Made by a program: the position numbers and the translations under genes. Shown here piece after piece: positions 1-64,000 of a stretch of 64,000 nt of DNA (its first letter is position 1; each line of letters starts with the position of its first letter). The notes under the pieces were generated by a model, which worked only from the letters and a program-made list of their open reading frames with translations, had not been told where the DNA came from and searched no databases. The DNA comes from Scenedesmus sp. ARA3 (lineage: Eukaryota; Chlorophyta; Chlorophyceae; Sphaeropleales; Scenedesmaceae): contig RWJK01001039.1 in assembly GCA_004335835.1 (NCBI GenBank), positions 6,569-70,568 on the forward strand, in the 5' to 3' direction.

Positions 1-1539
1 CGGCCGCCCCTGCTGCCGCTGCTGCTCCTAAAGCCACCGCCGCCGCCGCCATTGCGGCCGCCGCCGCCGCCGTAGCGGTGCTTGCTGGCCGCAGGCTTGC
101 GCACGCGAGCGGCAACAGCCTCCAGCTCTGGAGGCACGACCTGCCCCGCATCGCGCATTATCTGCACCAGCACAGGCGTCACTGCAGCATCCTGCGGCAC
201 GAGCAGAGTCAGGCTCTCGCCCTTGCGCCCGGCACGGCCAGTGCGGCCGATCCTGTGCACGTACATCTCGTGGTCACTCGGGAAGTCGTAGTTCACGACA
301 GCAGTGACGCCTGGAATGTCCAATCCGCGCGCCGCAACGTCTGTGGCGACAAGCACGGGGACAATGCCGCGGCGGAAGGCTGACAGCGCCGAGTCGCGCT
401 CGTACTGGGACTTGTCGCCGTGCACGGTGATCGCGCGGATGCCGGAGCGCGTCAGCTCGTGTGAAAGCCGGTCGCAGTCGCGCTTGGTGCTTGCAAACAC
501 CACCACCCGCGGCTGTGGGTTGGGAAGGTCATCCTGCGCGTAAGGATCCTCCGCAGTGCCGCTCACACCGCCCCTGCTGCCGCGCCGGCTGCTGCTGCTG
601 CTGCTGCTGCCGCTGCTTGATGTGTTGTTGCTTGTCAGCTCAGCGCCATGCAGGTGGTCGTGCAAATAGTCGCGCAGCGCTGGCAGCCTGTCCTCGGCAT
701 CTCCCAGCATGGCAACTAGCTGCGTGACGTCCTTGTTGGCCACCAGCTTCTCCTGCGGGCAGAAACAACAGATAAATAACAGAAATATAACACTATGTTC
801 AGGAGACGCACCAGAGCGTGATCAGATGCAGGCATGCAGCAATTCATGTAGGGCCAGATAATAAAGTGGGTAATGTGGGTGTGGAATGCTTTGATATGAA
901 AGCCAGCATCTCCTATGCGCAGCAGCAGCAAGCAGTTCAACAGCAAGCACCATGCTGTCATGACAACACTACATCTTATTCACCAATGCCGCACCTGCAC
1001 GTTGCCCACAAACACACGCACGGGGTCGTTCCTGCACAGCTGCCGTGCGATGTGCTGCACCTCCTTGGGCCAGGTGGCACTGAAGAACAGCGTCTGGCGC
1101 TGAGGGGGCGCCGGCTCGCCCTGCTTCAGCGGCTGCGCTGCCTCGCCGCCTGCGGCACAGCAGATGGCAGAGCAGCAGCAGCAGCAGCAGCGGCGTTGGC
1201 GTTGAGTGTGAACGATTGGGTCTTTTTGCACGTGTGATGAAAGCACGCACAGCACCGCACGCGCGCCTGCATGCATGTGTGCGTACTGTGGTCTGTGCAG
1301 ACGATGTGGCGGCGCCAACCAAACGAAGGGCGCTGCTTGCTGTTTGCACAGTGTCAGAGCAGCAACCTGGCCCTTTTCTGAGTGCTGCACAGCTCGCATG
1401 TGCCTAGTTTACACTGCAATCTGAGAGCCGCATGCCCCTTCCACCAGCATACCTGGCATGTGGCTGAGCAGCTCCCTGATCTGGGGTTCAAAGCCCATGT
1501 CCAGCATGCGGTCAGCCTCATCAAGCACCAACATCGACA

Positions 1540-1574
<35 letters not shown>

Positions 1575-2611
1575 GTATGGTCATCGCAGCGCTCCAACAA
1601 CAAACAAAGAGCATGGTGATGTGCGACGACTGCCTGCTGCGCAGACCAGCCCTGCCCCATCCATGCTCCTGCTCATGCGCTCTGCACCACCAGCAAGCCA
1701 AGCAAGCAATAGCACTGCTGCACACCTCCCCAAACAACTGCAGCCCAACCGCACCCCTGCTGCAGCTCAACTGCGCCCCCTCTTGCAGCTGAGCTCCCCC
1801 AGAGTCAGCTGTCCACCAACTCAACGCAATTGCTGCACTGCTCAACTCACCCTGTTGAGGCTGAGCTCGCCCGAGGTCACAAAGTCCAGCAGCCGGCCAG
1901 GCGTGGCAATGATCAGCTGCGGTGCACGCGAGAGGCTGCGGCCCTGCGGCCCGCGCGATGCGCCGCCATACAGGCACCTGCAGGCACGCGCAGACACGCA
2001 CACAATATAAGGCAGGTTGTTGCACACATTGCTGCAACCGCTGTCCATCAGGAGCGCTTGCAAGAACGACAGCCACACGCGCACGATGTAAGTCAGCTTG
2101 TTGCACGCATTGCTGCAACCGCCACACATCAGCAACGCTTGCAGGAACAGCAGGTGTGCTCCTTTGAAATGACGGCAAGCGTGTTGACCAGCATGCTTAG
2201 AGGGGAAGGTAGGCTGCTGCAAAGTGACAACATGCAGCTGCAACATGCCGAGGGTGCTGACAGGCACTCAAGGCCGTGCAACAACCTCCAGGCCAGCAGG
2301 TGCGCACTCACACGCGGCGTATCCTGAAAACCGCCCCTAGGTGCTCCGCCTCGTGCTGGATCTGCAACCCAGGTAGCCCAACAACACTGCCACTGACAGC
2401 AACCTTGGGACATGCAGCTGGCAAGCAGGTGAACACTCACGCGTTGCGAATCTTGAAGGGCGCCCCGAGCCGCTCCGCCTCGTGCTGGATCTGCTGCGCC
2501 AGCTCGCGCGTGGGCGCCAGCACCAGCGCAAATGGCGGAGCCTTGCCGGCCCCTCCCCAGCTCTGTGGCTGGTTCCATTTGCTCTGCCAGCCGCCGCGCT
2601 GCTGCTGCCGG

Positions 2612-2644
<33 letters not shown>

Positions 2645-7227: not shown

Positions 7228-7508
7228 GCTCGGGTGAGTGCCAGCAAGCACTCATTATGCCAGGTTCCCAGCCATCTTCCAAGTCATTATGGCACTGCAA
7301 ATCGGCCAGTTGCTATGAACTCCATTTACACCAGTTCAACGAGTTTTCCTATGATGCACGTTGATCATGCAGTGCTGGGTTGCGCACTGACGAACCGTAC
7401 CTTCCGGTGCGGCTGCGTTCCCTTTCGCTGCTGCTAGGCTTCGACGCCAGCAACTGCAAGAACTTGAGACAAGCAAGCCGCGGCAACTATCTGACAGAAA
7501 AAGCGCCC
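7228..7508 (+). promoter_or_regulatory. Duplicated 5' flank of GT2 copy A
   Basis: About 280 bp upstream of the start codon of copy A, recognisably related to 15964-16234 before copy B. Both begin with GGTGAGTGCCAGCA followed by CCAGGTTCCCAGCC and CTTCCAAG. The shared GGTGAGT could be a donor of a 5' UTR intron or just part of the duplicated promoter/leader. Confidence 0.5.
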
Positions 7509-10500
7509 ATGAGCGGCAATGGGGCCTTGCCCAAGTCTATGAAGGACCCCCAGGTCATGTCAGCTCCAGCTCCCAAGCTGCGTGCCAAGAGATCCTGGGT
7601 GGCAACTGGCTTCTTCGCGTCGTACATGGTGGCCCTGATCATCTACTTCGCCATTCGCTGCATGGGGATTGCCAAAGGCATGACCAACTGGCGTGATCGC
7701 GGGTGAGATATGGTCATAGTCACTATGATAACAACCCTGCGCAACACCTTCCTGCATGGCAGCCGTTGCCTGTGCAAAAGCTGCCGCTGCTCTCCAACTC
7801 CAAGATCCGTCAACCATCATCATAGAGAACCATTTGCCATGACTGTAGCTGTACTGCTGATGGGAGGCTGCATTGCAATAGCTGAGGTGCAACTGTGTCC
7901 CGACTAGTACCCCGGCCGATGGTCCCACTCTGCATTCCTGGTGAAAAGGTCTGGCCGACGAGGAACCATTGACGATGAGGTCTGGCATGGAAAGGTGCCG
8001 TGCGCATCTGACTTGCACAGCAAGCAGCCATTTTGCACAATCTAACAGGTGCTGCTGCTGCTGCTGCCGCCAAACCAACATCACGCCTCGCATCCCCACC
8101 CACAGGTACAGCATTGCTGTGCTGGTGGTTGAGGCCATCGGCGTGAGCGCCTTGATTCCCTATGCCTTTGCCAACCTGAGGCCCACGCTGCCGGTTGAGG
8201 AGCCAGAGCGCAAAGAAAATGAGGATCCCATTACGTGGGCGGAGTTTGGAGTTCGCGACAAGTGAGTGGCATGGAAGTTGCCTGGACAGCACAAACCAGG
8301 CAAAAGCTGTCCTGAGCTGAATGGGCAGGCTGGCACTGCAGCTACTCTGCTGACACTGCTGCTGCTTGAGCGTTCTAGCAGCTCTTGTTGCACTTGGCTG
8401 CATGCAGCAGTAGCGGGCAAAGCTACATCGCATCCCGCAGTGCAGCTGCAGCTGTCACGTGCTGCTGTGCATCACATGCACTGTTGGCAGTATGCCTGCG
8501 CACTGCACATGTTGTACCAGCCTTCTGCCCTGGTTGCTGCCCGGCTGCTGCGCTGCCCTGCCTGTGTCCTGCGCAGCTTTGACGTGTTCATCCTGGTGCC
8601 CTGCTACAAGGAGAGCTGGGCCACCATCAAGCGCACGCTGATGTGCGCCATGTTTGCGCGCGTGCCGCCCGGCTGCCGCAAGCACATCATCCTGGGCAAC
8701 GACGGCCACGACGTGGTGCGTGAGGCGCAGCGCTGCGCCTGCTGCTGAACTGCTTTGCTGATTGGAATACCTGCTGGCAGTTGTGCTTGTTTAATTGGTT
8801 ATATTCTGTACACAAAGCATTGATCATGATGCAGCCTTGCTGCAACAGATCCATGGCTCAGCTGCCTCACCAGCGTGGCTTGTCAGCAGCGCCGAACAGC
8901 AGAATACGGGCACCTTACTTGCCCTGCTGCACATGTGTGCTGTGTGATGCAGGACAACGCAAACTGCCAAAGGCGTCGTCAGTTGGTGGAAGATCTGCAG
9001 CTTGCCATGCGCGGTGTTTACAGAGGTGCGACAGATCAGGTCATGATGCTGCTGGTTTACTTTCAACGCTGGGGCTGTTATAACAGCCTAAGCACAAGCA
9101 TGGCTGCATCTGGCGGCCTCGCTGGCAGTTACGGCTGCCGCCCTTTCCTGGAAGCTTATGTAGTGAATGGTTTCAAGTCAACTGGTTGTGCTAGGCAGGC
9201 CACTTTTTCATTTTCACCTGGCTTTTGCAAGCAGCTGTAGATTCCGCAGATCCCAGCAGAAAGAATTGCAGAGACAGTCGGTAGCCATGCCACAAGCAAG
9301 AGAAACTGCCAGCGTTGGCAGCTTGTAGGCCTGTAACAGCGCTCGGCCTGACTTTTGCACACATTATGCAACCGCTGCTGCGCAGACCAACCCGACTGGT
9401 TCTATGCCATCCACCAAAGCAACCGCTTCAAGGTGCGCTGTGACCAAGACAACAAAAAGTTCACTGGCGAAGACAAGCGCATCGCAGGCAATGCCAAGTC
9501 ACTCAACCTGAACCACTGTGAGTGCTGGTGCAGTGCAACGCAGCAGCTGCTGCTGCTGCTGCTGCTGCTCCTTCGGCTAGCTTTCTGCGTTCCGTGCGAA
9601 CAGGCATGCACAAGTTGTCTGCACTGTTGCGCCAGGCAACAGGCAGAATCAGCAGGACTATGGCTTATTGCCGTCCACTGTTTGCAAATCATAACATGGA
9701 ACACATCACAGGTAGCGCCAGCTGCTTAGGCATGGCCTGTGGTCACAATGCCGCGCCGGAGGCAGAGCTCAAGAGCAGCACCATTTACTTGTTTCTTCAC
9801 CATGCTCATATCGCCATAATGTGCAGGCATCAAGATCGTCATCCCCAACATCTTGGCACGCCACCACCAGCGCGAGCGCAACGCGAGCAGTGCAGAGCCC
9901 CGCCTGTGTGACTTCAGCGATGCCGTGCTGCGCCGCAGCGTGGTTGTGGTGCTGGACTGCGACATGGCCATCACCAACGACCCCAACGAAGTCATGTTGG
10001 CTAACACCCCGCCCAGGAACGGAGACGGTGTCGGCTTCCTGCCTAAGGTGCGGCGCTGTTGCGAGTGGGTTTCCTGCAGGCGTGTCCATGTGTGCGCATC
10101 CCAGCACGCACCCTTCCTGGTCTGAAGTCGAGTGTCTGCCGAGTTCTCCTGCAGCTGGTACTCACGCCATGCACAGCCACCGCTGCAGCACCTTGCTGCA
10201 GGCCTGCCAGACTAGCTGGCTTACTTATGAGTTATGGCTCTCACTGCCCTGCGCCTGCTGCTGCTGCAGGTCCTGCGCGTGCTGCAAGATGACCGCTTCG
10301 ACTTGGTGCTGACGCCACAGTACTTCACCAATGTGACGTCCTACGCGGACGTGTTCAACCACCTCAACCCGCAGTTCTGGTGAGGCAGCGCTACCCTCAC
10401 TCTATAACCATTGACCATGCTGTGAAGCATGTCTTGCCTGCCATGCGATGCTTGCGCTTCGTCGCCCTGCCTGTAGTATCAGCAGCTTGTGGGTTGTCTG

Positions 10501-12187
10501 CTGTGGGTTGGAGTGTGCGGCTTCCGCTGCTGACCTGCTTGCTGCTGCTTGCTGCCTGCTGCTGCAGGGAGTACATCCTGCCAGGGCTGACCACGCTGGG
10601 CTACGTGGCCTGCACAGGTGGGTGTAGTGCAGCTTGCGGTAATGCTGTACATGTGCACACCGCTGTTGACGAGTTGTATGTTTGAAGCAGGTGCTGCTGC
10701 TGTCCTTGACTAGCTTCAAGTTGGGTTGTCCCAAAAGCATGCTCTGTCCTGCAAGCTGTCATAACTGCACCTGGCAGGTATGGTGAGAGCACGAGGCTAG
10801 CCTGCGACTGACAGACAGTGCTGTCCGCCCTGCTGCTGCGGCTTGCAGGCACAAACATGGGCCTGCGCCTATCCATGCTGCACAACCACAGCAGCACAAA
10901 CGACAGGAATGAGAACCAGGCAGTGAAGGAGTTTGCAGAGGGCCAGGGCGGTCCCTCTGCCCGCTACGAGGCTGCCATGCAGGGCCCCTTCCCTGTATAC
11001 AGCGTGACAGAGGACTACGCACTGTCCCTGGAGCTGAAGAAGGCGGGCGTCAAGGTGAGCACTGCAGCAGCGGGGCGTTGACCATGTTTGACCATGTTTG
11101 ACCAGAGCTGATGGTTCATGTGTGAAAGCCCCCAGTGCTATGCCTGCTGCAGCAACGCACTCCTGTGCTGCTTATCAAGCACTTTGTGTGTGCAAGCAGC
11201 ATCCTGACGGCTGTGTGCGTTCTTGCGTGTCTGCTGCATGCTGCTGCAGGGCACGTACATCAAAGAGTACCTGGTGAAGGGTGCTGCTCCCCCAGGCATC
11301 ACAGCAGTAGACACCCAGCGTGGCCGCTGGACAGAGGGTCACTACCAGGTGAGCAGCAAAGTCCCATTGTTAGTGATACGCATGCTGGTTTTACGGTTCA
11401 CGTATCACCGTTACTGCAGGCTGCAGATGCTGCCAGCTTGCAGGATGCGCCTGTCCTGCAGGCTGCAGATGCTGCCAGCTTGCAGGAAGTGCATATGCTG
11501 TAAGCTGACCCCATCACGATGCAGACATCTACAGATGGCATGGTTGCAGGTTGGTGGTGCCAAATGTGCTGAATGGAGCTCTGCACGCCGTCAGCCTTTC
11601 AACCTTTGCGCTTGCCCGCCTGCCTGCCTGGCCCTTGGCATGCTGCACACCCCCTGCAGATCTTCTTCAGCCGCAAGAACCCCTTCTTCCACCCCTTCAA
11701 GCTGGGTCCGATGGGAGCCATCTACTACAACTACGGCACGCTGTGAGTGGCAGGCATGCGCAGCTGAGCGCAGGAGAGGATGGATATCACAGACAGCATT
11801 GTTGAACAGAGCATTGCTGACAGGCAGCTGAACACTAACAGCTACAAGAAACACCTCAACAGCTGGCAGTACGCTGGAACGTCTTTACCTCTGGTGCCAC
11901 CAGAGGTGTCAGTGACACTGGGAGCCATTGCCATGTGTGTCCCACTCGGAGGGGAACACTGCTTGTGTCTGACAGCTGCCAGCTGCCTGCCTGCCTGCCT
12001 GTCTGCCCTCCTGCAGCGCCTACCTGGCCAACATCATCACCATCTGGGTTTACCAGTTTGTGCCGCTGCTCAGCGCGCTGGACTTGCAGCCTGTGGCCTT
12101 CAGCTCAGAATTCCGCTATGTGAGCAACGCTGCTGCCAGCTGACCTTGCACAGCACAGCACAAAAGCGGTGGCTGGTGGTTGCTTAC

Positions 12188-12244
<57 letters not shown>

Positions 12245-13530
12245 GCACGCACGTCATAGTGCAGATGTTGCTGGTTTGCTTGCTTGCTTGCTGCACGCAC
12301 GTCATAGTGCAGATGTTGCTAGCAACAATGAAACACGCAACTGACATGAGTCGCGCTGTTGCCCGTTGCTGCTGCCAGGCTGCCACTGCATACCTGGTGC
12401 TCACCACATTCGTGCAGTACTACGTGCGCGAGGCGCCTCACTACTATGGCATGTGGCGTGCCAACATGAGCAACATTGTGCTGAGCTGGACCTACACCAA
12501 GGCCATTTTCCGTGCAGCACTGGGCACCAAGAGCGGTTTTGCCACACACACTGAGGCAGAGGACGCTCCGGCTGATGACCTCATGCCCAACCCGCCAATG
12601 CCTGACAAGCCAGACGATAGTGAGTTGCTGCTGATCTCTCACGGATGTGCAGTGGGAGGGTTGGCGTTGGGCGCTGGTTGCTGCTAGTGCTTCTGCGTGC
12701 GTGGTTCTCGGTCCTGCTGCAGGCTGGGTGGGGCCACAGGGGCATGCGGTGGCCTAGCTGCACACACGCATCACCTGTAGTTTGCACATGCTGCCATACT
12801 GTGGGGCCGCAGCTGCTGGCAGCGTTCAATCAGCGGCTCTTGCTCCGTTTTTATGTTGTCCTGACGTGTTGCTGACTGCTGCCTGCTGTCCTGTGCTGCT
12901 CTGCCTGCAGACCTGGTGCAGGAGAAGGTCACCGGGATCACGGGGCAGCTGCTGTACTTCACGCTGCTGCTGCTGCTGTCGCTTGCCACCATCGCCATCT
13001 GCGTGACCAAGACAATCAAGTCTGGCAAATTCCACTCGCGCTTCTTCCTGCCAGCGGCGTGGGCGGCGTACAACGCTGTGGGCCCTCTGCTGTTCTTCTG
13101 TGCTGCCCTGATGAAGAAGACCAAGAGCCTTGAGATGGCCATGCACTCGCTATGCACTGTGAGTGGCAGCTGGCATGAGCCTGTGCAGCTGTACTTGCCC
13201 AGTGATGCTGTGGCAGTTGCTTTTGCAATGTCGCTATGTCATGTTGCATGCCGGCATCTCTTTGCGTGAGTGTAAAGCCGAAATATAGCTCATTCAGGGT
13301 CAGTGTGGAAAACAGCTGCAATCGAACGGACGCTGGCAGCAACGGTTGGAATGAGGGGCCTGCGCAGCGGGGCAGAATATGCCGCTGTCTAACGCTGCTG
13401 CTATGCTGCTGCCGCTGCTGCCTTGTTTTTGCAGCTGCACTCAGTGATGGCAGTTGCTGCGCTGGCGGCAATGTGGTTTGTCAACAGCGCCCTCTCCATC
13501 GGCTACATGGATTCCACCCAGCAGAAGTAA
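7509..13530 (+). CDS. Cellulose-synthase-like processive glycosyltransferase family 2, copy A
   Basis: Fifteen exons: 7509-7702, 8106-8261, 8577-8715, 8953-9025, 9386-9517, 9827-10047, 10270-10379, 10568-10617, 10849-11054, 11250-11348, 11660-11742, 12017-12119, 12379-12619, 12911-13158, 13435-13530; 716 residues, all phases consistent. Two N-terminal membrane segments (about residues 30-50 and 66-88), a cytosolic GT2 domain, then about five C-terminal membrane segments. The D,D,D,Q-x-x-R-W signature is complete: LGNDG (~158), VVVLDCDMA (~277), VTEDYALSLEL (~413) and TQRGRW (~450). The order and KSLNLNH segment resemble bacterial BcsA; there is no PilZ domain and no plant CesA zinc finger. 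It should polymerise a beta-glycan from a UDP-sugar at a membrane, perhaps for the cell wall; the product cannot be told from sequence. Tandem partner of copy B. Confidence 0.9.
12187..12320. repeat. (CTTG)n microsatellite with duplicated flank
   Basis: About 13 units of CTTG/TGCT followed by two copies of a ~40 bp unit ending CACGTCATAGTGCAGATG. It sits in the intron between exons 12 and 13 of GT2 copy A and is absent from the matching intron of copy B, so it arose after the duplication. Confidence 0.85.
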
Positions 13531-15963
13531 AGCAAGCGCAGCTGTTGGCACAGCTGCCGCGGCCTGCTAAGCAGCACTCCTGCAAGCGCTGCACAGTGGT
13601 TAGCTTGGGGCCGCGCGTGCGATGATGTGATTGGCGACAGCCAGTGCGGAGCTGCTGCTATTGTTCATGGCGACTAAATCTGCAGTCAAGTGAGGGCCAG
13701 GTGTTTGGTGCAGCAGATGTGGGCTGCGGTGGTCTGTGCTGCCGCGGTTCCTCGGGCCTTTTGCGTCTTAACCCATTGCAGCACAGAACCCATTGATCTG
13801 TTCAAGGTTGTTGCTTGCACAGATGGTGAGTGTGACGCGCATCATGCAAGAGTCTTGCAGCATGTTCCACAGAGACTGAGGTGGGCTGCACACATGCAAG
13901 GGCTTGCTGATGCACTGCCTGCAGCGCCTGTCAGTGCTGAGCCAGTGTGGTTGATTTCTGTAGTTGGCTTGTACAGGCTGGTTATAGGCATGCAGCCAAT
14001 GCTGTTTAGGTGAGTATGAACATGATGGTTTGTGCGGCAAGCGATGCGGCTACCTTTTCAAAGGGTTTGGCCATGTGAAGCTGCAGTCATATCGCCAGCT
14101 CAACTGCTGCAGCACCCCTGCTGCATGCAGTGACTGGGTCTTGTCTGCAGCAGAGTCTGTGGCCTTGGCAGCGGTTTCAGCAGGATTGAAGAACGTCATA
14201 CAAATTGAGCTAGTGAGGCAGGATTGCGCTGCTGAGCCGCTGCTGCTCTTTCAGGACTTGTAGCGCCTTACTTTGTTATGCATGTCGGGCATGACCAGCT
14301 GCAGCAGTTGCAGAATAGCAGCATGGTGAAGTTTTCTGGGTACGCATGGTTACCCATTAGTAGTGTGGAGCACTGTTAAGCTGTTTAGTTGTGTCTATAT
14401 GCAGCGTTGTTGTGTAGGAGGTCAGATGCATGGTACCCTGGCGAATGTCTGCTGCATGCCTGTTGTGCTGATGCGGCCTCTTTGCAAAGAGCTGCCCAAT
14501 GGCATGTTGACTGCGCATGGTCAATCTGCAGTGCAACAGCTGCTGTTGCATCGTCCTTCGGTGTGCTGCACTTTCCGCTGAATAGGCGGCACTTCAGTTT
14601 TTAGCCACTCAGTGCACAATGGTTATTGTTGAAAGTTCTCCAAGTTGAAAAGGTGCAAAACGTCGGAGGTGCATGCACATTATGTTGCACTAGTGCAGGA
14701 TGCGCATGCTGGGTTTAATATCGCTTAGAATGGGTGAATAGTTTGCATGCAGCTGCTTGCTAGGCAGGCGGCTGCAGCTGCCGCTATGCACGGCTGCCGC
14801 TGTATCAAGCAAACCAGGACAGGGTGCAGTGCAGCAGCTTCTGCAGGCACCAGGAGCCCAATATGAGCTGCACAAGTTCAAGCAGCATACTTTCTAGTGT
14901 GTAGTACAGTGTGGGTAGACCAGAGCAAGCGTACTGGGTGCAGCGTTTACATTTCTCCAATGCCAGTGCTGACAAGCCTGGTTCTGTATACCATGCTGTA
15001 GCTGAGGGCGGAATGTTCAGTTGCACAGATCTCTGGGGAGCGCATATGCCAACATTAGTGTCTGCCGCTGCTGGTGCCTACCAGTACAGTGCAGTTTGGT
15101 CAATACGTGTGCAGCAATCAGTGCTGCCTGTTATCATGTAAGCATTGCACACACATGAATTGTACGTTCTTTGGGGCGGCCCGTGACCTAATCATTAGGT
15201 CAAGCAGCAGTCTGTTGTGCTGGTTGTGCACCCTGGAGGTTGTAACACATTGTCTGCACATACTGCAAGTCTCAGGTCGGTCATAGGTGTGGGTGTGACG
15301 CACAGCAGTGGCCACGCCAGGACGTATGCAGTGGCACTGCTGAGCAGTGCCCTTGGTGCTACATGACAGTCACCGTGACGTGACGTGGTGTTTGACATCA
15401 GCACCGCCATCACGGACAGCTGCTGGTGGTGCCATGGCGTGATGTGCTGCCTTCCCAGCAGAGCTGGATGCGTGTCTTTCCATGGCTAGCAGCTGCAGAT
15501 GTCTTGCTAATTTGATGTCTGTTGGGTGCCACACTTGGCAGTGGTGCTGAGCAGTGCACAGCTACTACGTTGCCAAAGGCTGCATATTTTCATGCCTATA
15601 TTGTTGGAAACCCACCTCAAGGTTGTCCAGCCCGCCATCGTCGCATCACCCATGTGCGAGGCGCCTGGCACTGCAAGGGTTGCAGCTGCAGTGACTGCAG
15701 TGACTCCACCTCCCTGTGACACATTCGTGTAACACGTTCCTTCCGCAGCGCAGGCAGTGCTGGTTGCAAGCAGTGTTGGTATATCATGCAAACACATTCA
15801 AGGCAGATGATCACGGCTGTCTGACACGTCTCATCACAGTGGCGAGACCGGCTATTCGGAGCACTTCTTGACTAGTCTCAGATCGTGTCTTTGGTCAGCA
15901 CCGACGTGTATAACACGCTTACAGGTAGCTTAGTTAAAGTATTAAGGGGCCTAAGTGACGCTT
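13531..15963. other. Spacer between the two GT2 copies
   Basis: About 2.4 kb with no supported coding exon. It holds the 3' UTR of copy A and a region (about 14150-15000) related to the sequence downstream of copy B. The remainder (about 15000-15960) shows no clear match and no gene. Confidence 0.5.
14150..15000 (+). repeat. Duplicated 3' flank, copy A side
   Basis: Diverged but collinear with about 22800-23550 downstream of GT2 copy B. Matching landmarks include CCTTGGCAGC, TTCAGCAGGA, AATTGAGCT, TAGCAG..GCATGGTG, CTGTGCTGATGCGG-like and CACAAGTTCA..CAGCAT segments in the same order. No open frame is conserved between the two, so the homology looks non-coding. Confidence 0.55.
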
Positions 15964-16234
15964 AGGTGAGTGCCAGCATGCCAGGTTCCCAGCCAGCTTC
16001 CAAGGCTTCAAGGTGCTGTCAGGTTTGCCTCGTGCATCCGAAACAGCCTCCAAACATATATACAGCGATCAAATGTTGTGAGCAAGGAATCAGCCGGCGG
16101 TTGTTGGAAAAACAATAAGGAACAGGACCTGCCGGTGCTACTGCGTTCCTTCCGCTGCTGCCAGGCCTCGAGGCCAGCAACTGCCAGCGTCTGAGCAGCT
16201 TGGGCTCTGAAATACATCTGTCTCTGGGCCACTC
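15964..16234 (+). promoter_or_regulatory. Duplicated 5' flank of GT2 copy B
   Basis: The counterpart of 7228-7508, about 271 bp ahead of the copy B start codon, with the shared GGTGAGTGCCAGCA and CCAGGTTCCCAGCC landmarks. It marks the 5' edge of the duplicated unit. Confidence 0.5.
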
Positions 16235-21926: not shown

Positions 21927-22079
21927 AGTGGCGCAGCTGCTGGCACAGCTGCTGTGGGCAAATACATACTGTGCTTCAAGCACACTTGAGTGTGCTGCGC
22001 TGTGCAGTGCGTGCAGCCAGTGCAAAGGCATTTTGTCTGGTTTTCTTGACTTCACTGTCCGAGTATGAGTAGGACGCTT

Positions 22080-22650: not shown

Positions 22651-22799
22651 CCGGGTACCTGTTTTTTTGGGGAGGAGGTAATGCGCCAATCGGTGCTGCT
22701 TGACAATGTGAGCATGCATGGCTGCACAAGCCTGGCTGCTTGCATTGTCTGCAGCATCTTCAAGCTGCGGTTGCACTGCTTTGTTAGTTGGCTGCAGCA

Positions 22800-47300: not shown

Positions 47301-48725
47301 AGGCACGCCCAGGTGCCGGTGCAGTGCCGCCACCCTGCTTGGCTTCCTGTGCGTCCGTAACATCACATGTCACGCTGTTACGGATGTTACATTGCAGGTC
47401 TCCCAGCTGCAGGTGCTGGAGCTGCACGCCGCTGCGCTGCTGCTGCGCACCGAGCAGCTGCGCCGCAGCCTCACCTCCCTGGCCTGCCAGTACCGGGCCT
47501 TCTTCACATGGCTGCTGAAGGCAGTGCGGCAGCTGGAGGGCCAAGATGCTGCTGCTGCTGGTGGTGCTGCTGCTGCTGGTGGTGATGCTGGCAGCAGCCT
47601 GGCGTCTTGCCAGGAGGTGCTGGCTTTCCTGAAGGGGCAGTTTTTGCATGATGCCATTGCACCTGAGCTGTCGGTGAGTTCGGTTTGACTGATGTTTGAA
47701 AGTTTATGTTTGTCTCCCCTTGATCACCGTGGGGTGTGGCGCTAGATGTGGTGCTCTGCAGCCCTGCAAGCAGTGAGGTGCTGGGGCTGTGTTGTATCAA
47801 GCTTCTGGACGGCCACAGGCAGGCAATGGCAGCTTGCAAAGAGGCAGGATCAATTACTGTTGTAAGTCAGGTAAGTGGACCCGTCTGTTTAGGATCAGCG
47901 CTGGCCTGCCAGTACCGGGCCTTCTTCACATGGCTACTCAAGGCAGTGCGGCAGCTGGAGGGCCAGGATGCTGCTGCTGCTGCTGCTGAGGGTGGGGGTG
48001 GCGGCAGTGCTGGTGGTGACGCTGGCAGCAGCCTGGCGTCATGCCAGGAGGTGCTGGCCTTCCTGAAGGGGCAGTTCCTGCATGACGTTATTGCGCCTGA
48101 GCTGTCGGTGAGTTCAAATTGGATACTGTTCGACAGACAGTTTCTCCGCAAGCGACTTTGGTGTGGCGTCATGTTTGGGGCTGTGTGCGCATTCAACAGG
48201 CTTGCGTGGATGCGGCTGTGTGGCTGTGCTCAAGCACGTACATGCTCCTCTGCTTCTGCTTACACAGTCCAGCATACAAGCCTGATAATCCTGATAAAGC
48301 GCTGTGAATTGCATGCTGCCACACTTGCAGGGCTCCTCCCTCACTCCTGAAGCGCAAGCACGCGCAGAGGCGCTGCTGTACCAGGGCATACGCCCCGCAG
48401 AAACACACCAGCTGCTGGCACTGCTCATGCCTAGTCAGCCTCAAAACTTCGGTGCTACTGCCGCTGCAGCTGCCAACCAACCAGGCAGCAGCAGTGCTGC
48501 CAGTCCAGGGGCCCTGCAAGCAGCCGGCGGTCAGCAGCAGCAGCAGCAGGGGAAGCCGAGAGCAGCAGCAGTTGAGTTGGCAGCTCAAGCTTGCAGCAGG
48601 CCATTGGCGCAGCAGCTGCAGCAGCTGGTGTCGCTGTGTGAAGAGGAGTTTGAGCAGCCAGTGATTGCAATCAGTCCAAGTGTAGTGCCACCTGTTGCGC
48701 AGCTGCAGCTGCTGCCTGGTGGAGG

Positions 48726-55433: not shown

Positions 55434-58400
55434 ATGTCGCACGTGAAGGCGTACACAGTGGGCGGCATTGGCAGCCAGCCAGGCCTAGACAACGTGGTTA
55501 GCGTGGCGCGTGGGCACCCGATCGCGCTGGATCACGCAGGATCCGAACGCATCAAGAAGGAATCTCCAGCACCCAAGGCATTTCAGGCCGAGGCTGACAG
55601 TGATGGGCAAGCAGTAGCAGCAGCAGCCAGCACTCCCAGCTTGAGTGCCGAGCAGGCACGAGCTGTGCTTATCACGCGGCTACTGTCGCTAATGAACGGG
55701 AAGACCGGCGTGCGGCTACAAGTTGCGGACTTCCTGAAGGAGCTGCTGAACCAGAACATAGTGCCTGCAGTACCAGCAGCAGATGACGCTGCAGCGCTTG
55801 GTGCAGTAGCAGATGCCTGCAAGGGTCTTGGCAGCATAGCAGGCAGCTCCCAGCAGCTGTCTGCTGCCTTGGAGGCTGCAGGAATCACTGCGCCAGGCGT
55901 CAGTGCAGCAGAGCGAGCAGCTATCAGCAGCGGAGCAGCAGCATCTGCTGGCGTGGGCTCACTGGTGATTGTCGGCGGCAAGCAGCTGCTGACAGTCGTC
56001 ACTGCAGTTGCAGCGCTCAGCTGCGAAGCAGCAGGGGCACAGGTGAGGGAGGCAGCAGGGGCACAGGTGAGGGAGGGGCACAGGTGAGGGAGGGGCACAG
56101 GTGAGGGAGGGGCACAGGTGAGGGAGGNNNNNAGGTGAGGGAGGGGCACAGGTGAGGGAGGGGCACAGGTGAGGGAGGGGCACAGGTGAGGGAGGCAGCA
56201 GGGGCACAGGTGAGGGAGGGGCACAGGTGAGGGAGGCAGCAGGGGCACAGGTGAGAGAGGCAGCAGGGGCACAGGTGAGAGAGGGTGCCTCTTTGCTGCT
56301 TTGCAAAGCAAGGAGACCGTACAAACTGCTGCGTTTTGGAGCCTAACACATGTGTGCTGCAACCGCTTCAACCGCCAGCAGTACACGACTCCTGCGTTGG
56401 AGATAGCATGCACAGACACTGCGTCACAGCTCGTGAATTGTGGTGATACTTGCTGCGGTGCAGTATGCTCCTTCTGCGCTGCCTGTGTGTGTTGCCATTC
56501 GTCCCGTCTGCACCTAGCCACACAAGGTGCAAGCACTGTTGCATGTGCTTGCACACCTGCTGGACGGCTTGTTGGTGCTGGACCGCTGGTCACATGCGTT
56601 GTGTTGCACTGCTAAACCTTATCTGCACCTGCAGGTCAAAGCGTTTGAGGCTGATGTGGTGGAGTGCCTTGGCTATAAAGGGGCCATCTCAGCAGCGGAT
56701 GAGCTCAAGGGGCTGCTAAACGGCTGGTTGATGCTGCGATGTGCTGACATGGGTTATGCTGCACTGCTAAACCTAATCTGCACCTGCAGGTCAAAGCCTT
56801 TGAGGCTGATGTGGTGGAGTGCCTTGGCTATAAAGGGGCCATCTCAGCAGCGGATGAGCTCAAGGGGCTGCTGGACGGGCTGGTTGACTTTCACTTGCAG
56901 ACGTACTCACATGCGTTATGTTTCTCTGCTTGATTCATCTGCACCTGCAGGTCAAAGCCTTTGAGGCTGATGTGGTGGAGTGCCTGGGCTATAAAGGGGC
57001 CATCTCAGCAGCAGATGAGCTCAAAGGGCTGCTGGACGGGTCAAAAGCAGCAGGCAGCCGCAAGGGCCTGGCAGCAGAGCAGCAGGCGGTGTTCAGCAAC
57101 CTGCCGCAGGCAAGTTTGACCAAGAGTTGACCAGGAGTTGACCGGACCTTGACTTTTTGCTGCCAGAGGGGTTGCATGCAGGCGGAGTCGGGCAATGTTT
57201 ACAGCACGTTGCAGTGTTGGTGCTGCTTGCAGAGGAGAAATGCAGCACGGCAAGGATAATTTTTGACAAACTCGTGCAGCGATCAATGCAGCAGGCGCTT
57301 GTGTTGCAGGGCTGCAAGAGTTGCCTCTGGCTTGGGAGCAGCTAGCGCGCTGTCTGCTTGCTCATGCTGCTTCGCTGCCTGCTGCTGCAGGTGCTGGGGT
57401 CTGCTGCTGATGCACTTGGTGTGGCTTACAACAATGTGCGGCCGGAGGTGCAGAGCGCTGCACTGCCAGTCAAGGTGCGGCCTGCAGCTGCTGGCAGTCT
57501 TTGTGTTCATGTTTCTAGCGTGCAGTTTGTGTGAGTTGTTCCTGCTGCGGTGCTATTGGCATCACTGCCAGTCAAGGTGCGGCCTGCATCTGCTGGCAGG
57601 CTTTGTGTGCATGTTTATAGCATGCAGTTTGTGTGAGTTGTTCCTGCTGCGGTGCAATGGGCATCACTGGCAGTCAATGTGCGGCCTGCATCTGCTGGCA
57701 GGCTCTGTGTGCATGTTTTTAGCGTGCGGTTTGTGTGAGTTGTTCCTGCTGCGGTGCTATGGGCATCACTGGCAGTCAAGGTGCGGCCTGCATCTGCTGG
57801 CAGGCTTTGTGTTCATGTTTATAGCATCCAGTTTGTGTGAGTTGTTCCTGCTGCGGTGCTATGGGCATCACTGGCAGTCAAGGTGAACGCAACCAAGCAA
57901 AACAAAACCTGAGCACCCTGGTGAAGCCTGCTTTCGCACGTAAGCATATGTAAATAAGCTAAACAGCAGCAAACAGAAAGCCTGTAGCATTTGTCTCCTC
58001 TGTGTGCTTTGCACTGCTCTTGCTCTGGCTGGTGACATGGTATGAGTGCGGTGATGATTTAGCTTACCTTCTGACACCTCTTGTGCGAGGGTGCTTCTGC
58101 ACTCGCTGAACGCAACCAAGCTAAACACAACCTGAGCGCAACTCAACTGAAGTCCTGGGCGTTTAAGATGCATAAACCAGTCATGTTGTTTGCAAAGATG
58201 CATCTGCACATGGTTTGTTATGCTATTGCTTTGCGGTTTTGCTTAGTAGATGCATCAGTGCTGTGATGAGTTAGCTTACCTTCTGACACCTCTTGTGCGA
58301 GGGTGCTTGCACCCGCTGAACGCAACCAAGCTAAACATAACCTGAGCACGACTCAACTGATGTCCTAGTTGTCTAAGATACATGAGTCAGTCATGCTGTT

Positions 58401-61400
58401 TCAAACCCGTTCATCTGCACATTCCATGTTCTGGTATTGCTTTGCGGGTTGCATAGTAGGTGCATCAGTGCGGTGATGATTTAGCTTACCTTCTGACACC
58501 TCTTGTGCGAGGGTGCTTGCACCCGCTGAACGCAACCAAGCTAAATAAAACCTGAGCACTGTTTGATCATGCTTTGAACGTGTGCATAGTGTCAGCGCTG
58601 TGCTTGTTGTTGGTGTGTGCATGTGCGGTGATGATTTAGCTTACCTTCTGACACCTCTTGTGCGAGGGTGCTTCTGCACCCGCTGAACGCAACCAAGCTG
58701 AACACAACCTGAGCACTGCGCCTGCCGTTCCTGCAAGTATGTGCTTCACTTATCTTTGCTATCATCCCATCGAGCCTGGTCCTTTCACAATACCTGCTCA
58801 CAGGAGATTCAAGTGATGCCAGGTGTTGCTGATGTGCATGGTGTGCTGGTCTCGCTGGCGCTGCTGCTGCTGTTGCCCTGCAGGCTGGCGCCAGCCCCAC
58901 CCTACCCAGCCCAACTCTCGCACCAGCCCTGCTGGATGCAGCCCGGGCGCTGCTCAGCGTCGCACACAGCTGCATTGCACGCAGCCAAACCCTCAGCAGC
59001 CTAAACCCAGCTGTCGAGCCGCAGCTGCAGCAGCTGGCAGCAGCAGCACTGTCAGGCCCCCTGGCAGCAGCGCAGCAGCAGCTGGCAGCAGTTGGATCAG
59101 AGCTGCTAAGCCCTGCTGGGGTGCAGTGGGGTTTAGGGGCCGAGGTGCAGCAGCGGGGTTCAGCGCTGCAAGCGGCGCTGGCAGCAGCAGCAGCGCTGGA
59201 TGCGCTGCAGGGGGCAGCAGCAGTGGAGGGCCTTGCTGCTGTGGTGGTGCTGCGACTAGCAGAGGTGAGGAGAGTGTGCAGTAGTGTGTACGTGCAAGTA
59301 GTGCTGCAAGGGTTGGAGCGTTTGAGTTTGGATGTGTGTCGCATGCAGCAATCGTAGCAGCAGTTGCAGCAACGAGTTGCCCGGATAAGCTGCCCTGGAT
59401 GAATGTGATCGAAAGCATTCTGCGACAGCAAAGTCACCTTAGCTACATGTTCCCTTGCTAGCTGTGTTGCTGACCCTGAATCGCGGGCAATTTATTGTCT
59501 GCTGTCGCCTTTTCTGTTGCGGTTTTTAGGGCCCGGCTGCTGAGCCAGCAGCAGCAGCAGAGCAGCAGCAGCAGCAGCAAGACGGCAAAGAGAACAAGAA
59601 GAAGGAGAAAAAAGACAAAAAGGCAGCCGGCCTCACCTTGGGCAAGGGCACTGCAGTGGTGCGGGCACACCTAGAAAAGGCAGTCGCAGAGGCGGCCGCA
59701 GCAGCTGGCACAGCAGCAGGAGCAGCCGGCACCCTGCAGGTGAGCATGGTGTAACACATGTGTATTTGTGTGTGGCTGTACCAGGTGTGGCGCCTTTCCT
59801 GCAGCTGGTGCCGGTTTTTATGAAGACGTGCGGCATATATTGTAAAGATATATGATTCATGTGAATGGCAGGGTGCATTGGCCCGGAGTGTGGCAGTGCA
59901 TGTTGTCGTCTCACGCCCGCAGCTTTGTCAACACAACTGAGCAGCACAGTATCACGACACTCCCAGCAGCACTCACAACTGTTATGACCGCCTTGCCGCA
60001 GAACAAACGGCACACGTGCCTGCTCCGCTGCCCCAACTCGCCACCTCTAAACTGCTGCCTGCTCAACCACCCTTGTTGCAGGTTGTGGATGGCAGCCTTG
60101 CTGCTGCAGCAGCAGTGCTGGGTGGTGGTGCGGGCCTGGCTGCAGTGACGGCAGTCATCACTGCTCATGAGGCCTCAGCTGTGAAGCTGCTGGAGGAGTT
60201 GAAGCTGGTGGTGGAGGCAAACCAGGCGCGCCGCAAGCCCAAGGTGCGTCATTTTGTTGAATTGCTGTTAGCTTCTCAACTCCACAGATTGAAACTTATT
60301 TTGTGTGCTGTGTACATTTGCGCTGTCAGCTGCTGCAACCCTGCCTTGCTGAGTTTGTGTCTCATGCTGTGCACCATGCACCACCGCAACTGCGCGTCTG
60401 CTGCTGCTGCTGCAGGTGGCCAAGGGTGCGCGCGACTTCCTGCCTGATCAGATGGCCATCAGGGAAGCCGCCTTCGGCATCATCACCAGCGTGTTCAAGC
60501 GCCACGGTGAGAGCAGCAGCAGCAGCAGCAGAAGCATGGCCACAGCAGCCGCAGCTGCAGCATCGAGCACTGCCGTTTGCAGTGCCTGCAGCAGCTGTGC
60601 TAGCAGCAGCGTGACATCGAAAGGTTGGGTTGCCACCACCTCAAGCCTGTGGATCACATTGTGGCATCCTGCTGCCGCCGCTGCTGCCGTTAGGTGCCGT
60701 GGCCATCGACACGCCCGTGTTTGAGCTGCGTGAGACGCTGATGGGCAAGTATGGCGAGGACTCCAAGCTGATCTACGACCTGGCTGACCAGGTGCGGTTT
60801 TTCTGGCGCCGTGATACCAATGTATGTGCAATGTTGCTTCGTATGCTGAGTTGCTGTAGCAGCAGCAGCCCGCCCACGACCATTTCCAGGATAGGGAGAC
60901 ACACGCGCATCACGCTTGACGTCTTGAATCATCTACATAGCTCCGCTGGTGTGCCCCTGTCCGCTCGGGCGGCGAGCCCCCGAGACTGCGCTACGACCGT
61001 ATGTACTTCCCACACCCTGAGTCACATTCAGATGTTTCAGCCTGTGCTGTTACTCATTCCTGCCGCCAGGGCGGCGAGCTGCCGAGCCTGCGCTACGACC
61101 TTATGTGCATTTCCATACCCTGAGTCACAAACATATGTTTCTGCCTGTGCTGTTACTTCACCCTACCGCCAGGGCCCCTCCGATACAAGGCACACCCTGA
61201 GTCACAAATGTGGCATTGCTTGTAATTATGCGTGTGCTTGTGCTGTGTGCCCCTGCAGGGCGGCGAGCTGCTGAGCCTGCGCTACGACCTCACTGTGCCG
61301 TTTGCGCGCTACGTGGCGGTCAACGCCATCGGCAACATCAAGCGCTACCACATCGGCAAGGTCTACAGGAGGGACCAGCCGCAGCTGGCGCGCGGCCGCT

Positions 61401-61786
61401 TCAGGTGCGGCTGCCTGTGTTTGCAGGCAGCACAGCGCTGGCCCACAACCGTGTCGGGTAGTGTTGAACGCTGCACCTAGCACAGCCCTGGCTTGCAGTG
61501 CAGCCACACGTGTCTACCGCAGGGATCAGCCGCTGCTGGCGCGCGGGCGCTTCACAGTGTGCATAGTTGTGTCTGCTTGCAGCACAGCCGCACGCTGCAG
61601 CTCAGCCAGAGGGTTTGCTGGACGGCGGCCACATGTTATGCGTGCCTAGGTTGTGCTGCTCGGCCTTCAATGTCCATGGTCTGTCTGTCTGCCAGGCAGC
61701 CTGCGCCGCGCTCAGATGTGGGTGTTCTGCCTGTGGCAGCAATACACAAGCAGCGCAATGCAACGCCGTCTCACGAGTGGTCATGT

Positions 61787-61822
<36 letters not shown>

Positions 61823-61941
61823 AGGGAGTTCTTCCAGTGCGACTTTGACATCGCGGGCAGCTACGCGGCCATGGTGCCTGACGCCGAGGTGCTGGGCGTG
61901 CTGCTGACTCTAAACATGCTGCTGCTGCCGCCTCCGCCACA

Positions 61942-61973
<32 letters not shown>

Positions 61974-62779
61974 AGGGAGTTCTTCCAATGTGACTTTGAC
62001 ATCGCGGGCAGCTATGCGGCCATGGTGCCAGATGCTGAGGTGCTGGGCGTACTGCTGACTCCACAACTGCTGCTGCTGCCGCCTCCGCCACACCTGCCGC
62101 TGCTGCTGCAGGGAGTTCTTCCAGTGTGACTTTGACATCGTGGGCAGCTACGCTGCCATGGTGCCTGACGCCGAGGTGCTGGGGGTGCTGCTGACTCTAC
62201 ACCTGCTGCTGCTCCTGCTGCCTCCGCCACACCTGCTGCTGCTGCTGCTGCAGGGAGTTCTTCCAGTGTGACTTTGACATCGCGGGCAGCTATGCTGCCA
62301 TGGTGCCAGATGCTGAGGTACTGGGCGTGCTGGTGGAGATCCTGCGGGACCTGCGGCTGGGGCAGTTCACTGTGAAGCTCAACCACAGGAAGCTGCTGGA
62401 CGCCATGCTGGCCATTGCTGGGGTGCCGCCACAGAAGTTCCGGCCGATCTGCAGGTGTGAAATCTAAATGGTTTCTGAAGTACATAGTGAAGTTTTGTGG
62501 TTATCTCGGAGGCAGTGGGTGTGCGGAGTGCTGCTAAGCTGCTGGCCATATGCACTGCGGCATTCTTCTGCAGGCTGTCTGTATGTCGTAGGGTTGTCTA
62601 CAAGATGCTTGCGTCTGCAGCCATTCAAGTGCGGTTGTTGCTGCTGCTACTGCTGCTGTTGCTGCTGCCCCTGTCAGTGTCGTTGACAAGCTGGACAAGA
62701 TGTCGTGGGGGGGGTGGTGCCTGCTCATCATGAGAAGCCCTGCTCATCACCTCTGACTCACTGTTCTGTCTGTGCTCTG

Positions 62780-62832
<53 letters not shown>

Positions 62833-64000
62833 CGCTTCCCTCTTCAGTGCCATTGACAAGCTTGACAAGGAGCCGTGGGGGGTGGTGCGCGCTGAGATGG
62901 TGGAGGAGAAGGGGCTGCCCGGTGACGTGGCTGACGCCATCGGCCAGTTCGTGGTGCTGCGGTGAGCATGCTCATGAGGAGCCTTGCATGTGTTGTGTGC
63001 TGTGGCTTTGCTGTCAATGATAGTTATGGCAAGTCCCTGAAAATGCTTTCAGTGGGTTGCTGAAGGAGGGGCGGGGGGAAGGTTGATAAGTGTTTGATTT
63101 GATCCGGTGTGGTATGGTCGGGGCAAGCACATGCCTGGCTGAGATGGTAGAGGAGAAGGGGCTGCCGGGTGACGTAGCTGACGCCATCGGGCAGTTTGTG
63201 GTGCTGCGGTGAGCATAACCACGCGCATGTGGAGTGCTTTCTGTGTTGTATGCTGTGGCCTTGCTGTATTTTGGCTGCTGTTGATGCCGTCAGTGGGTTG
63301 GTGAAGGGTAAATTGGAAGGGTTATGACGTGGCGTGGTGGTGTTGGGGCAAGCACCTGTCTAGTTGCATGGCTGAGATGGTGGAGGAGAAGGGGCTGCTT
63401 GGGGGAGGTGGCGGACGCCATCGGGCAGTTCGTGGTGCTGCGGTGAGTGGCGCATTGCAACAGCCATGGTGCCAGCTGTGGTGCCAGGACGCACAATTAA
63501 CTATCCTCTCATTGTGTAGCACTGCTGGCATGTGGCTCACACAATGCGCTGCGTGCTGTGGTGCTGCTGTTGAACTAGTGAGCTGCAATGTGTGCTTGCG
63601 TTGTGATCCGGCATGCCGGCAGACCGCACGCATGCAGCTAAGCCAACACCTTGCCCCACAACCCACAGTCCTGCTTCTGCTTCTGCATCTTGCTCTGCTG
63701 CTGCTGCTGCTGCTGCTGCAGTGGCGAGCCCCGGCAGCTCCTCGCCACCCTCACTGCATCAGATCACCCTCTGGCGCAGCACCCAGACTCAGCAGCTGCA
63801 CTGGCTGAGCTGTCACAGCTGTTTGACTATCTGGAGGCCTTTGGCGCACTCGGCCCCATCAGCTTTGACCTGAGCTTGGCCCGTGGGCTGGATTACTACA
63901 CGGGTGTCATTTATGAGGCGGTGCTGGAGGGCGGCAATGTGGGCTCCATTGCAGCAGGTGCGCTGGTGTTTGGTGCTGTTGTGGCAGTATGTTGTGTGTG
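55434..64000 (+). CDS. Histidyl-tRNA synthetase, plant-type long N-terminal extension (3' end off window)
   Basis: Twelve exons so far: 55434-56042, 56951-57109, 57391-57474, 58884-59264, 59530-59739, 60082-60243, 60416-60506, 60694-60791, 61259-61404, 62254-62454, 62848-62961, 63722-63957; 830 residues. The class II core starts near residue 536: [68 protein letters not shown] (motif 2), [11 protein letters not shown], and the HisRS signature [12 protein letters not shown]. It charges tRNA(His). The ~530-residue extension has the [11 protein letters not shown] and [11 protein letters not shown] segments seen in plant cytosolic HisRS, and a Lys-rich linker ([13 protein letters not shown]) before the core. 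Intron 2 starts with GC (CCGCAG|GCAAGT). The anticodon-binding domain lies beyond the window. At least eight exon edges have echoes. Confidence 0.92.
56030..56285 (+). repeat. Minisatellite built on the HisRS exon 1 donor, with assembly gap
   Basis: Units of 14-22 bp, GGCACAGGTGAGGGAGG with or without CAGCAGG, repeated about 15 times from the true donor (56042|GTGAGG) onward. Every unit contains CACAG|GTGAG, an intact donor. Five N bases at 56128-56132 mark an unresolved gap, so the true length is unknown. Confidence 0.93.
56622..56960 (+). repeat. HisRS exon 2 start with two upstream echoes
   Basis: CACCTGCAG plus the coding start [18 protein letters not shown] to ELKGLL occurs with acceptors at 56634, 56789 and 56950 (true), in steps of 155 and 161 bp. 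About 100 bp of exon is nearly identical in all three. The two upstream copies depart at the GLLDG position and have no donor. Confidence 0.94.
57455..57892 (+). repeat. HisRS exon 3 end with four downstream echoes, exact 102-bp period
   Basis: The exon end CTGCCAGTCAAG|GTGCGG at 57474 recurs at 57576, 57678, 57780 and 57882, each exactly 102 bp apart. The third reads CAAT|GTGCGG and the last CAAG|GTGAAC; all keep GT. The unit is nearly identical, so the array is recent or homogenised. Confidence 0.95.
57883..58720. repeat. Tandem array in HisRS intron 3 with minus-strand exon-like units
   Basis: Four units (about 58045-58140, 58258-58350, 58470-58560, 58622-58715) plus a fragment at 57883-57915, spaced about 212, 212 and 152 bp. 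On the minus strand each reads an open frame [22 protein letters not shown] followed by GTAAGC, a good donor. On the plus strand each has AACGCAACCAAGCTxAAC. It is not an echo of any HisRS exon that I recognise. Confidence 0.8.
60950..61275 (+). repeat. HisRS exon 9 start with upstream echoes
   Basis: Three degenerate copies (about 60955-60995, 61060-61100, 61160-61180) of the GGCGGCGAGCTGxxGAGCCTGCGCTACGAC exon start, with a CACACCCTGAGTCACA intron landmark after each. The true acceptor is at 61258. The upstream copies have lost clean acceptors (GCTCGG, GCCAGG). Confidence 0.8.
61505..61560 (+). repeat. Echo of HisRS exon 9 end
   Basis: GTCTACCGCAGGGATCAGCC... to GCGCGGGCGCTTCA repeats the motif 2 coding end of exon 9 about 150 bp downstream; the donor side reads TTCACAGTGTGC, so the donor is shifted or lost. 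Confidence 0.8.
61790..62330 (+). repeat. HisRS exon 10 start with three upstream echoes
   Basis: A (CTG)n tract ending in CAG, then the coding start [20 protein letters not shown] to EVLGVL, occurs with acceptors at 61824, 61975, 62111 and 62253 (true). Steps are 151, 136 and 142 bp. Roughly 90 bp of exon is kept at near identity in each. Reading on from the first unit reaches a stop shortly after the second acceptor. Confidence 0.95.
62660..62725 (+). repeat. Echo of HisRS exon 11 start plus acceptor
   Basis: CCTGTCAG|TGTCGTTGACAAGCTGGACAAG repeats the exon 11 acceptor and first ~40 bp, about 180 bp upstream of the true acceptor at 62847. Confidence 0.85.
62890..63455 (+). repeat. HisRS exon 11 end with two downstream echoes
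   Basis: The segment coding [20 protein letters not shown] to VVLR and its donor ends at 62961 (true, GTGAGC), 63208 (GTGAGC) and 63442 (GTGAGT), spaced 247 and 234 bp. The third copy has a 1-bp frameshift (GCTTGGGGGAGG). Confidence 0.94.

Follow-up and report, generated by a model that had tools for sequence, protein, structure and literature searches.

Why would the edges of exons be copied, together with their splice sites, into the introns beside them? The question is raised by 64,000 nucleotides of the green alga Scenedesmus sp. ARA3 (assembly GCA_004335835.1, contig RWJK01001039.1, positions 6,569 to 70,568 of the forward strand), hereafter the window. A preliminary description made from the letters alone reported that about 25 exon boundaries in six genes (a helicase, eEFSec, LACS, ASCC1-like, APC4 and HisRS) recur as copies, or echoes, in the adjoining intron, with acceptor copies upstream of the exon and donor copies downstream. 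We counted 24 such boundaries and found the pattern again outside the window, consistent with one general process across unrelated genes. In our judgement the echoes are fairly likely to be tandem duplications that straddle exon-intron junctions and are tolerated when the outermost splice site gives a normal mRNA.

The sample comprises 304 kb of one genome, namely the window and 240 kb elsewhere (20 contigs sampled over their first 10 kb, one of them also over bases 10,001-50,000), from an assembly of 87.3 Mb in 1567 contigs. The copies are adjacent and in the same orientation: local (<2 kb) high-scoring segment pairs (HSPs) in self-comparison number 60 direct and 0 inverted in the window and 130 direct and 2 inverted elsewhere, or 190 direct versus 2 inverted over the 304 kb. 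The 24 echoed boundaries (21 hand-sorted self-comparison clusters, two from an edge scan and one micro-array) belong to the helicase (1), eEFSec (1), LACS (7), ASCC1-like (2), APC4 (5) and HisRS (8) genes; a weak edge-scan match at APC4 donor 43082 (score 31) was left out. No repeat cluster touches the junctions of the two GT2 genes, PnsB3 or Maf in the window self-comparison, as the preliminary description had it, and GT2-b has one wholly intronic array.

In the edge scan, the first or last 40 bp of exons were compared with their own intron (score at least 34), with length-matched other introns as controls. The last 40 bp matched the own downstream intron in 24 of 310 cases (controls, 0/1550) and the first 40 bp matched the own intron in 17 of 320 (controls, 1/1600). 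Matches were rarer for wrong-side probes (6/256 and 4/259; P=0.003 and 0.012 versus edges) and for exon-internal probes (5/181 and 0/194; Fisher P=0.016 and 0.0003). Outside the window, 15 of 218 donors and 9 of 229 acceptors matched (edge versus internal, P=0.09 and 0.012). At least 5 of the 48 probes with matches are misread echoes (window 40539, 40215, 40299, 56790 and 62112), and the scan overlooks some self-comparison clusters, for example in L021. Over the whole sample 37 of 412 introns, about one in eleven, have an echo, namely 15 of 114 within the window and 22 of 298 outside it, and the distribution is uneven, with zero in 13 of 19 single tiles. The window thus shows the ordinary kind of echo, at a moderately high density.

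A cruder count, of any local duplication across a given point, gave 27 of 319 donors, 23 of 319 acceptors and 24 of 319 mid-introns, and the middles of exons of at least 150 bp lay inside a local duplication at near the junction rate (15 of 209; window 4/49); this count includes protein (exon-exon) repeats as well as the echoes, which cover part of the introns. 

The window HSPs are 69-98% identical and the arrays are therefore not an assembly collapse; the sole N run in the window (5 N) lies inside a HisRS donor micro-array. The median array period is 128, units are mostly 70-300 bp, and the periods of 54 arrays modulo 3 divide 20, 20 and 14, so that the reading frame is not kept. Introns with echoes are longer (371 versus 243 bp, P=0.0002), and intron lengthening by tandem duplication, one of the explanations first offered, is the best reading.

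Gene models were obtained with a small exon-intron hidden Markov model (HMM) trained on the 304 kb, which recovered a splice consensus of exonic AG followed by GTG[A/C]G at donors and of CTGCAG followed by exonic G at acceptors. It predicted 571 exons, with median lengths of 110 bp for exons and 243 bp for introns; because it frequently calls echoes exons, some junctions are wrong and the counts based on it are approximate. The models were compared with database proteins in three genes. The LACS exons join into one open frame that matches P0001 over its full length once 26 read-through residues are dropped by eye, and the echo-free model shows 99% identity and 100% cover to this Tetradesmus obliquus protein (OEZ86_003686; 676 aa). 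The echo-free HisRS model shows 98% identity and 100% cover to T. obliquus P0121 (A0A383VD50). From these two identities we take the alga to be T. obliquus or a very near relation. The ASCC1-like model lacks pieces present in P0129 (85% identity). Echo peptides are absent from the LACS and HisRS database proteins and from P0122, by its name a transcript-style record of a relative. The LACS and HisRS proteins would point to the outermost splice site as the one used.

A Pfam search with ten exon pieces gave three matches above the curated cut-off (GTP_EFTU, AKAP7_NLS and Helicase_C) and four below it (AMP-binding, AKAP7_NLS, ANAPC4 and tRNA-synt_His), and three pieces were without a match. The ASCC1-like name is also supported by ASCC1 rows at 24-28% identity, and the APC4 name comes from a single weak Pfam match. 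The names eEFSec, GT2, PnsB3 and Maf are those of the preliminary description; the eEFSec gene has a GTP_EFTU domain.

These features suggest the following scheme. A tandem duplication, mostly of 70-300 bp and produced by break repair or slippage, would happen to span a junction, so that the pre-mRNA holds at least two copies of one splice site. It would persist if the outermost site (the first donor or the last acceptor) stays in use, leaving mRNA and protein unchanged, while the inner copies are absorbed into a lengthened intron. The echoes would afterwards drift nearly neutrally, multiply or shrink by whole units, and lengthen introns. Acceptor echoes lie upstream because only the last copy of a unit made of intron tail and exon head leads into the remainder of the exon; for a unit of exon tail and intron head the reverse geometry holds, and donor echoes lie downstream. 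Use of an inner site instead would insert extra sequence into the protein, in most cases with a frameshift given the array periods, and such duplications would be filtered by purifying selection. We infer that the side rule is geometry plus purifying selection. The direct orientation, many whole-unit homologies, the side rule, the recurrence elsewhere in the genome, the lack of echo peptides in the LACS and HisRS database proteins and the longer introns all speak for this reading.

Junction excess, coding constraint and splice-site use

Several observations weigh against junction-spanning duplication followed by drift as the full account. The first is that, of 62 intronic arrays, 54 lie across a junction, whereas the naive expectation from intron and exon lengths is 0.47-0.54 (P about 1e-8). 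Repeat coverage likewise peaks at junctions (0.13 on the donor exon side versus about 0.06 at 40-70 bp into the intron). Both would be expected of breakage targeted to splice junctions, by R-loops or the transcribing spliceosome, that made duplications commoner there than elsewhere in introns. Exon-derived similarity is, however, easier to see because its source is constrained and has fewer indels. With this similarity masked, 12 of the 54 straddling arrays were still detectable, as were 8 of 8 intron-only arrays, and the masked scan gave 13 further matches outside both array lists, 4 of them without an intergenic part. Since masking drops most straddling arrays, much of the junction excess reflects the longer visibility of exon-derived sequence. 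The masked result is close to the expected half and does not demonstrate junction targeting; the test has little power, since a straddling unit offers less intron sequence than a unit lying wholly inside an intron. The unit ends of whole-unit arrays sit tens of bases from the junction. Targeted breakage, which the preliminary description had put forward, is on this evidence unlikely, and the straddling excess, mostly removed by masking, was rejected as a sign of it.

A second set of points concerns how echoes age. In-frame stops are rare in the exon parts of echoes (2 of 845 codons), and source-echo differences favour third codon positions (103, 78 and 189 at positions 1, 2 and 3), for which a constrained source accounts only partly. 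HMM exons are repeat-covered as much as introns (10,728 of 104,782 bp versus 8,911 of 89,532 bp), unlike the expectation from purging, although the exon figure is inflated by protein repeats and misread echoes. We aligned 16 multi-copy arrays at their junctions, anchored by unit (46 echo-echo pairs). Substitution between echoes was 0.143 in exon-derived and 0.183 in intron-derived halves (0.134 and 0.161 in the 33 pairs with clearly alike intron halves), fairly close to the equal rates that drift in both halves would give; all pairs together had 1.9 gap openings per 100 columns in exon halves and 6.5 in intron halves. Singletons on echo branches fell at codon positions 1, 2 and 3 in 48, 31 and 56 cases (15 arrays), and codon changes in these arrays were 42 nonsynonymous and 36 synonymous in echoes and 9 and 15 on the source branch. 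Coding constraint on the echoes thus seems to be almost, but not entirely, absent. A strong contrast between the exon-derived and intron-derived halves (17/17 junctions, 15/16 arrays) was withdrawn after the unit-anchored alignment, as mostly an artefact of fixed windows and indel alignment.

The third point is a protein. The T. obliquus record P0130 (A0A383VIG8) has a 39-residue insertion that matches one echo of the ASCC1-like array at 40001-40645, and P0129, which comes from another record, is without it; either the echo acceptor is used or P0130 is mis-annotated there. An echo read as an exon is what a decoy or poison splicing layer could produce, that is, echoes retained to compete with real sites and so regulate the transcript. 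Most echoes do keep the splice dinucleotide, as first described (37 of 48 GT or AG), and acceptor echoes keep AG somewhat more often than nearby exon dinucleotides are kept (17/21 versus 84/126). Donor echoes keep GT no better than their surroundings (20/27 versus 131/162), the echoes drift, and the six genes have no shared function known to us. Nothing in the data calls for a decoy function, and we regard this part of the preliminary description as very unlikely to be right.

Some echoes could alternatively be real exons with their own acceptor, that is, tandem alternative exons. An AG stands just before a few echoes in which only the exon edge is alike (L004 372, L007 1332 and L019 8969, by eye), and whole-exon copies exist; the LACS and HisRS database proteins and P0122 are without such exons, and we consider this explanation quite unlikely. 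The earlier statement that no echo carries both splice sites is spoken against by 20 HMM exons that lie whole inside a repeat (9 in the window), although many of these are misread echoes. We read the window cases as such, except 47955-48107, which may be a real exon. Outside the window, whole-exon copies look genuine in places, for example L019 5878-5983. HMM-called exons copied whole with both splice sites at L014 1464-1803, L019 5402-5990 and L021 4250-4342 may represent either genuine tandem duplications of an exon or alternative exons.

Echoes alike in the exon half only

Whole-unit duplication fits many echoes: intron-side similarity reaches z of at least 2.5 in 25 of 47 pairs, and the copied unit there holds sequence from both sides of the junction. 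Among the other 22, in which it is undetectable, 15 have an exon-half identity of at least 0.88. This adds to the points against simple drift, since 15 of the 28 pairs with such exon-half identity have no detectable likeness in the intron half, whereas simulated neutral decay of whole units (two settings) left 0.2-0.4 of 28 pairs undetected. Of the 15, those at window 32107 and 43860 reach z=4.1 by another alignment and the junction map at 35549 is doubtful, leaving 12 that are firm. By another scoring, the intron half of 25 of 44 pairs falls in the bottom 5% of its matched neutral simulations; gaps in the simulations had a mean of 6 bp and a maximum of 40, while in real arrays unit lengths vary by as much as 131 bp. 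Between a quarter and a third of pairs keep the exon half better than the neutral model allows, and are not covered by that model. Examples are C800 40996, L004 372, L019 1556 and 2789, and LACS 33330. Along 27 donor echoes, identity stays at about 0.86 as far as the junction, drops to 0.63-0.81 across the five donor bases and is 0.44 immediately after them. Candidate causes are exon-to-echo conversion, copying of short units with filler, and large intron indels under-represented in the simulations.

Under exon-to-echo gene conversion, old tandem duplications would have diverged in their intron halves while the exon edge of the echo was repeatedly overwritten from the real exon. This would account for exon halves that are 0.88-1.00 alike, plus a few bp of donor, followed by little or no similarity. 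It would also fit the echo-echo differences at codon positions 1, 2 and 3 (137/905, 112/900 and 236/898) and the synonymous states that HisRS copies share in blocks (by eye). The almost equal divergence of exon and intron halves in multi-copy arrays argues against it, and no conversion tract was demonstrated; we hold it possible, on the doubtful side.

A further tentative candidate combines two routes, in which whole-unit duplications occur beside short copies of the exon edge and donor motif that are separated by unrelated filler, the kind of product left by error-prone break repair. In ten donor cases the spacer, of 54-196 bp, resembles the sequence that follows the echo weakly or not at all. 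Queries with spacers or echo segments from four loci found only the locus of origin. Of the 15 exon-edge-only pairs, 12 are donors, a bias that would arise if acceptor copies had to bring along more intron. However, the intron stretch shared in most such donors is 3-6 bp, about that of random donor pairs (median 3, 90% at most 7), and free break points should spread. A break-point hotspot 3-6 bp past donors was rejected on the same comparison.

A more far-reaching reading is that exon edges with their splice motif are copied into the adjoining intron, or kept alike there, by exon-to-echo conversion or junction-guided copying that works on the exon edge and leaves the intron around it untouched. 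We think this rather improbable. If true, new intron sequence would keep being templated from exons in this alga, and 12-15 of the 47 pairs, mostly donors, would be the outcome.

The arrays are of interest in other respects. The cause of the large differences in intron length among related species is an open question, and arrays of many ages beside junctions form a mutational record with the source exon at hand for dating. Near-identical donors or acceptors in series are natural tests of splice-site choice. They are also an annotation hazard: the HMM often called echoes exons, and one public protein (P0130) seems to contain one.

Arrays and neighbouring sequences in the window

On the minus strand, self-comparison found a donor echo of helicase donor 2441 at 2291-2494 (exon part 54 bp, period 129). 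In LACS, it found single acceptor echoes of exons 30734-30822 (at 30789-30965) and 31981-32106 (32062-32227), two acceptor echoes of exon 34139-34295 (34268-34504), three donor echoes of exon 34987-35134 (34505-35036) and donor echoes of exon 35549-35681 (35218-35609). The LACS donor echo of exon 33330-33476 (33184-33395) is alike in the exon half and unlike in the intron half. That of exon 34139-34295 (donor 34138; echo at 34034-34178, edge-scan score 54) has lost its GT (ATGAG). The ASCC1-like gene has donor echoes of exon 39929-40081 at 39654-39988, from self-comparison, and the acceptor array of five echoes with a period of about 109 at 40001-40645, one of which is the echo read as an exon in P0130.

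On the plus strand, self-comparison found the eEFSec donor echoes of donor 27423 (27350-27694) and, in APC4, a donor echo of donor 43860 (43843-43996), two acceptor echoes of exon 45197 (44971-45229), an acceptor array of exon 46461 with a period of about 127 (45560-46483) and two donor echoes of donor 46637 (46544-47225). A donor-type copy with period 422 at 47479-48115 is the one that the HMM calls exon 47955-48107, perhaps rightly. In HisRS, self-comparison found two acceptor echoes of exon 56951 (56557-57040), three donor echoes of donor 57475 with period 102 (57447-57885), acceptor echoes of exon 61259 (60956-61298), a donor echo of donor 61405 (61361-61588) and two donor echoes of the exon ending at 62965 (62891-63447). 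The HisRS acceptor array of three echoes of exon 62254 (61792-62335; exon part 82 bp) is absent from P0121 and P0122, and the acceptor echo of exon 62848 (62678-62890) has an edge-scan score of 43. The micro-array at HisRS donor 56038 (56028-56284) holds 12 exact copies of CACAGGTGAG at 56038-56279 in 17/24-bp units, along with the 5 N. As CACAGGTGAG is the exon end plus the donor, this is a minisatellite built of donor sites.

Control arrays that lie wholly within introns were found by self-comparison, without strand assignment, in the helicase (1994-2148), in GT2-b (20980-21197), in the HMM ASCC1-like model (38553-38881) and in HisRS (57884-58718; units of about 212 bp, copies 78-98% identical).

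The two GT2 genes (7392-14336 and 16120-22994) are a tandem pair, with aligned DNA segments 70-87% identical and closely matching predicted exons. A 300-bp direct duplication of 77% identity at 22063-22642 lies just downstream of the last predicted exon of the second gene. ARAGORN calls a tRNA-Ala (ggc) at 33613-33696 on the minus strand that runs into LACS exon 33675-33767 and is probably a false call. The LACS4 model P0003 of Scenedesmus sp. PABB004 (986 aa) has about 300 extra N-terminal residues; its first part resembles, by eye, the predicted PnsB3 product of the window, and it may be an annotation fusion of neighbouring genes.

Relation to known duplications and intron gain

The closest precedent is the potato RdRp gene, in which a tandem duplication that crosses an intron-exon boundary has been published (PMC4974935). 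This was a single event that made a new intron, whereas here there are many events, multi-copy arrays and both types of boundary, and the LACS and HisRS proteins of the alga are unchanged. The open-access literature, as represented by listings and the starts of abstracts, yielded no account of comparably dense arrays at existing junctions. Boundary-crossing duplication is thus already known as a kind of event, and its frequency here was not found described.

According to a review, tandem genomic duplication is the one route of intron gain, among those proposed, to have been demonstrated in vivo (PMC3443670). In the classical form of that route, a segment containing AGGT is duplicated in tandem (Rogers 1989 and Hellsten 2011, via PMC4974935 and PMC3443670). 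The likeness is that a tandem duplication bears splice-site sequence, and most donor echoes in the alga end in AG followed by GT. The difference is that there an exonic segment becomes a new intron, whereas in the alga an intron already present grows longer. AGGT intron gain predicts a downstream exon that starts at the second copy, but in each of ten donor cases the next exon called by the HMM is separated from the echo by 21-414 bp; in the L007 case that exon is itself a further copy. The LACS and HisRS proteins fit one long intron, again contrary to AGGT intron gain. Novel intron positions in Drosophila (PMC2891723) resemble the arrays in that a regional tandem duplication with proto-splice sites made a copy intronic; they are new positions in few cases, and multi-copy arrays at existing junctions are not described in the text available.

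Small tandem duplications at break ends that involve CST/Pol alpha-primase (PMC8355091) offer a mutational route to short head-to-tail duplications. They come from mouse and human cells, and the accessible text does not describe a link to splice junctions. As tabulated in PMC5966456, mean introns are 462 bp in T. obliquus versus 230, 302, 284 and 270 bp in four other algae. An introner or transposon origin was considered and rejected, as five array or spacer queries matched their own locus only, in a search that skips common words. Introners (PMC9860276) share with the echoes a large effect on intron content; they are one element copied to many genes, whereas each of the algal arrays tested resembles its own exon only.

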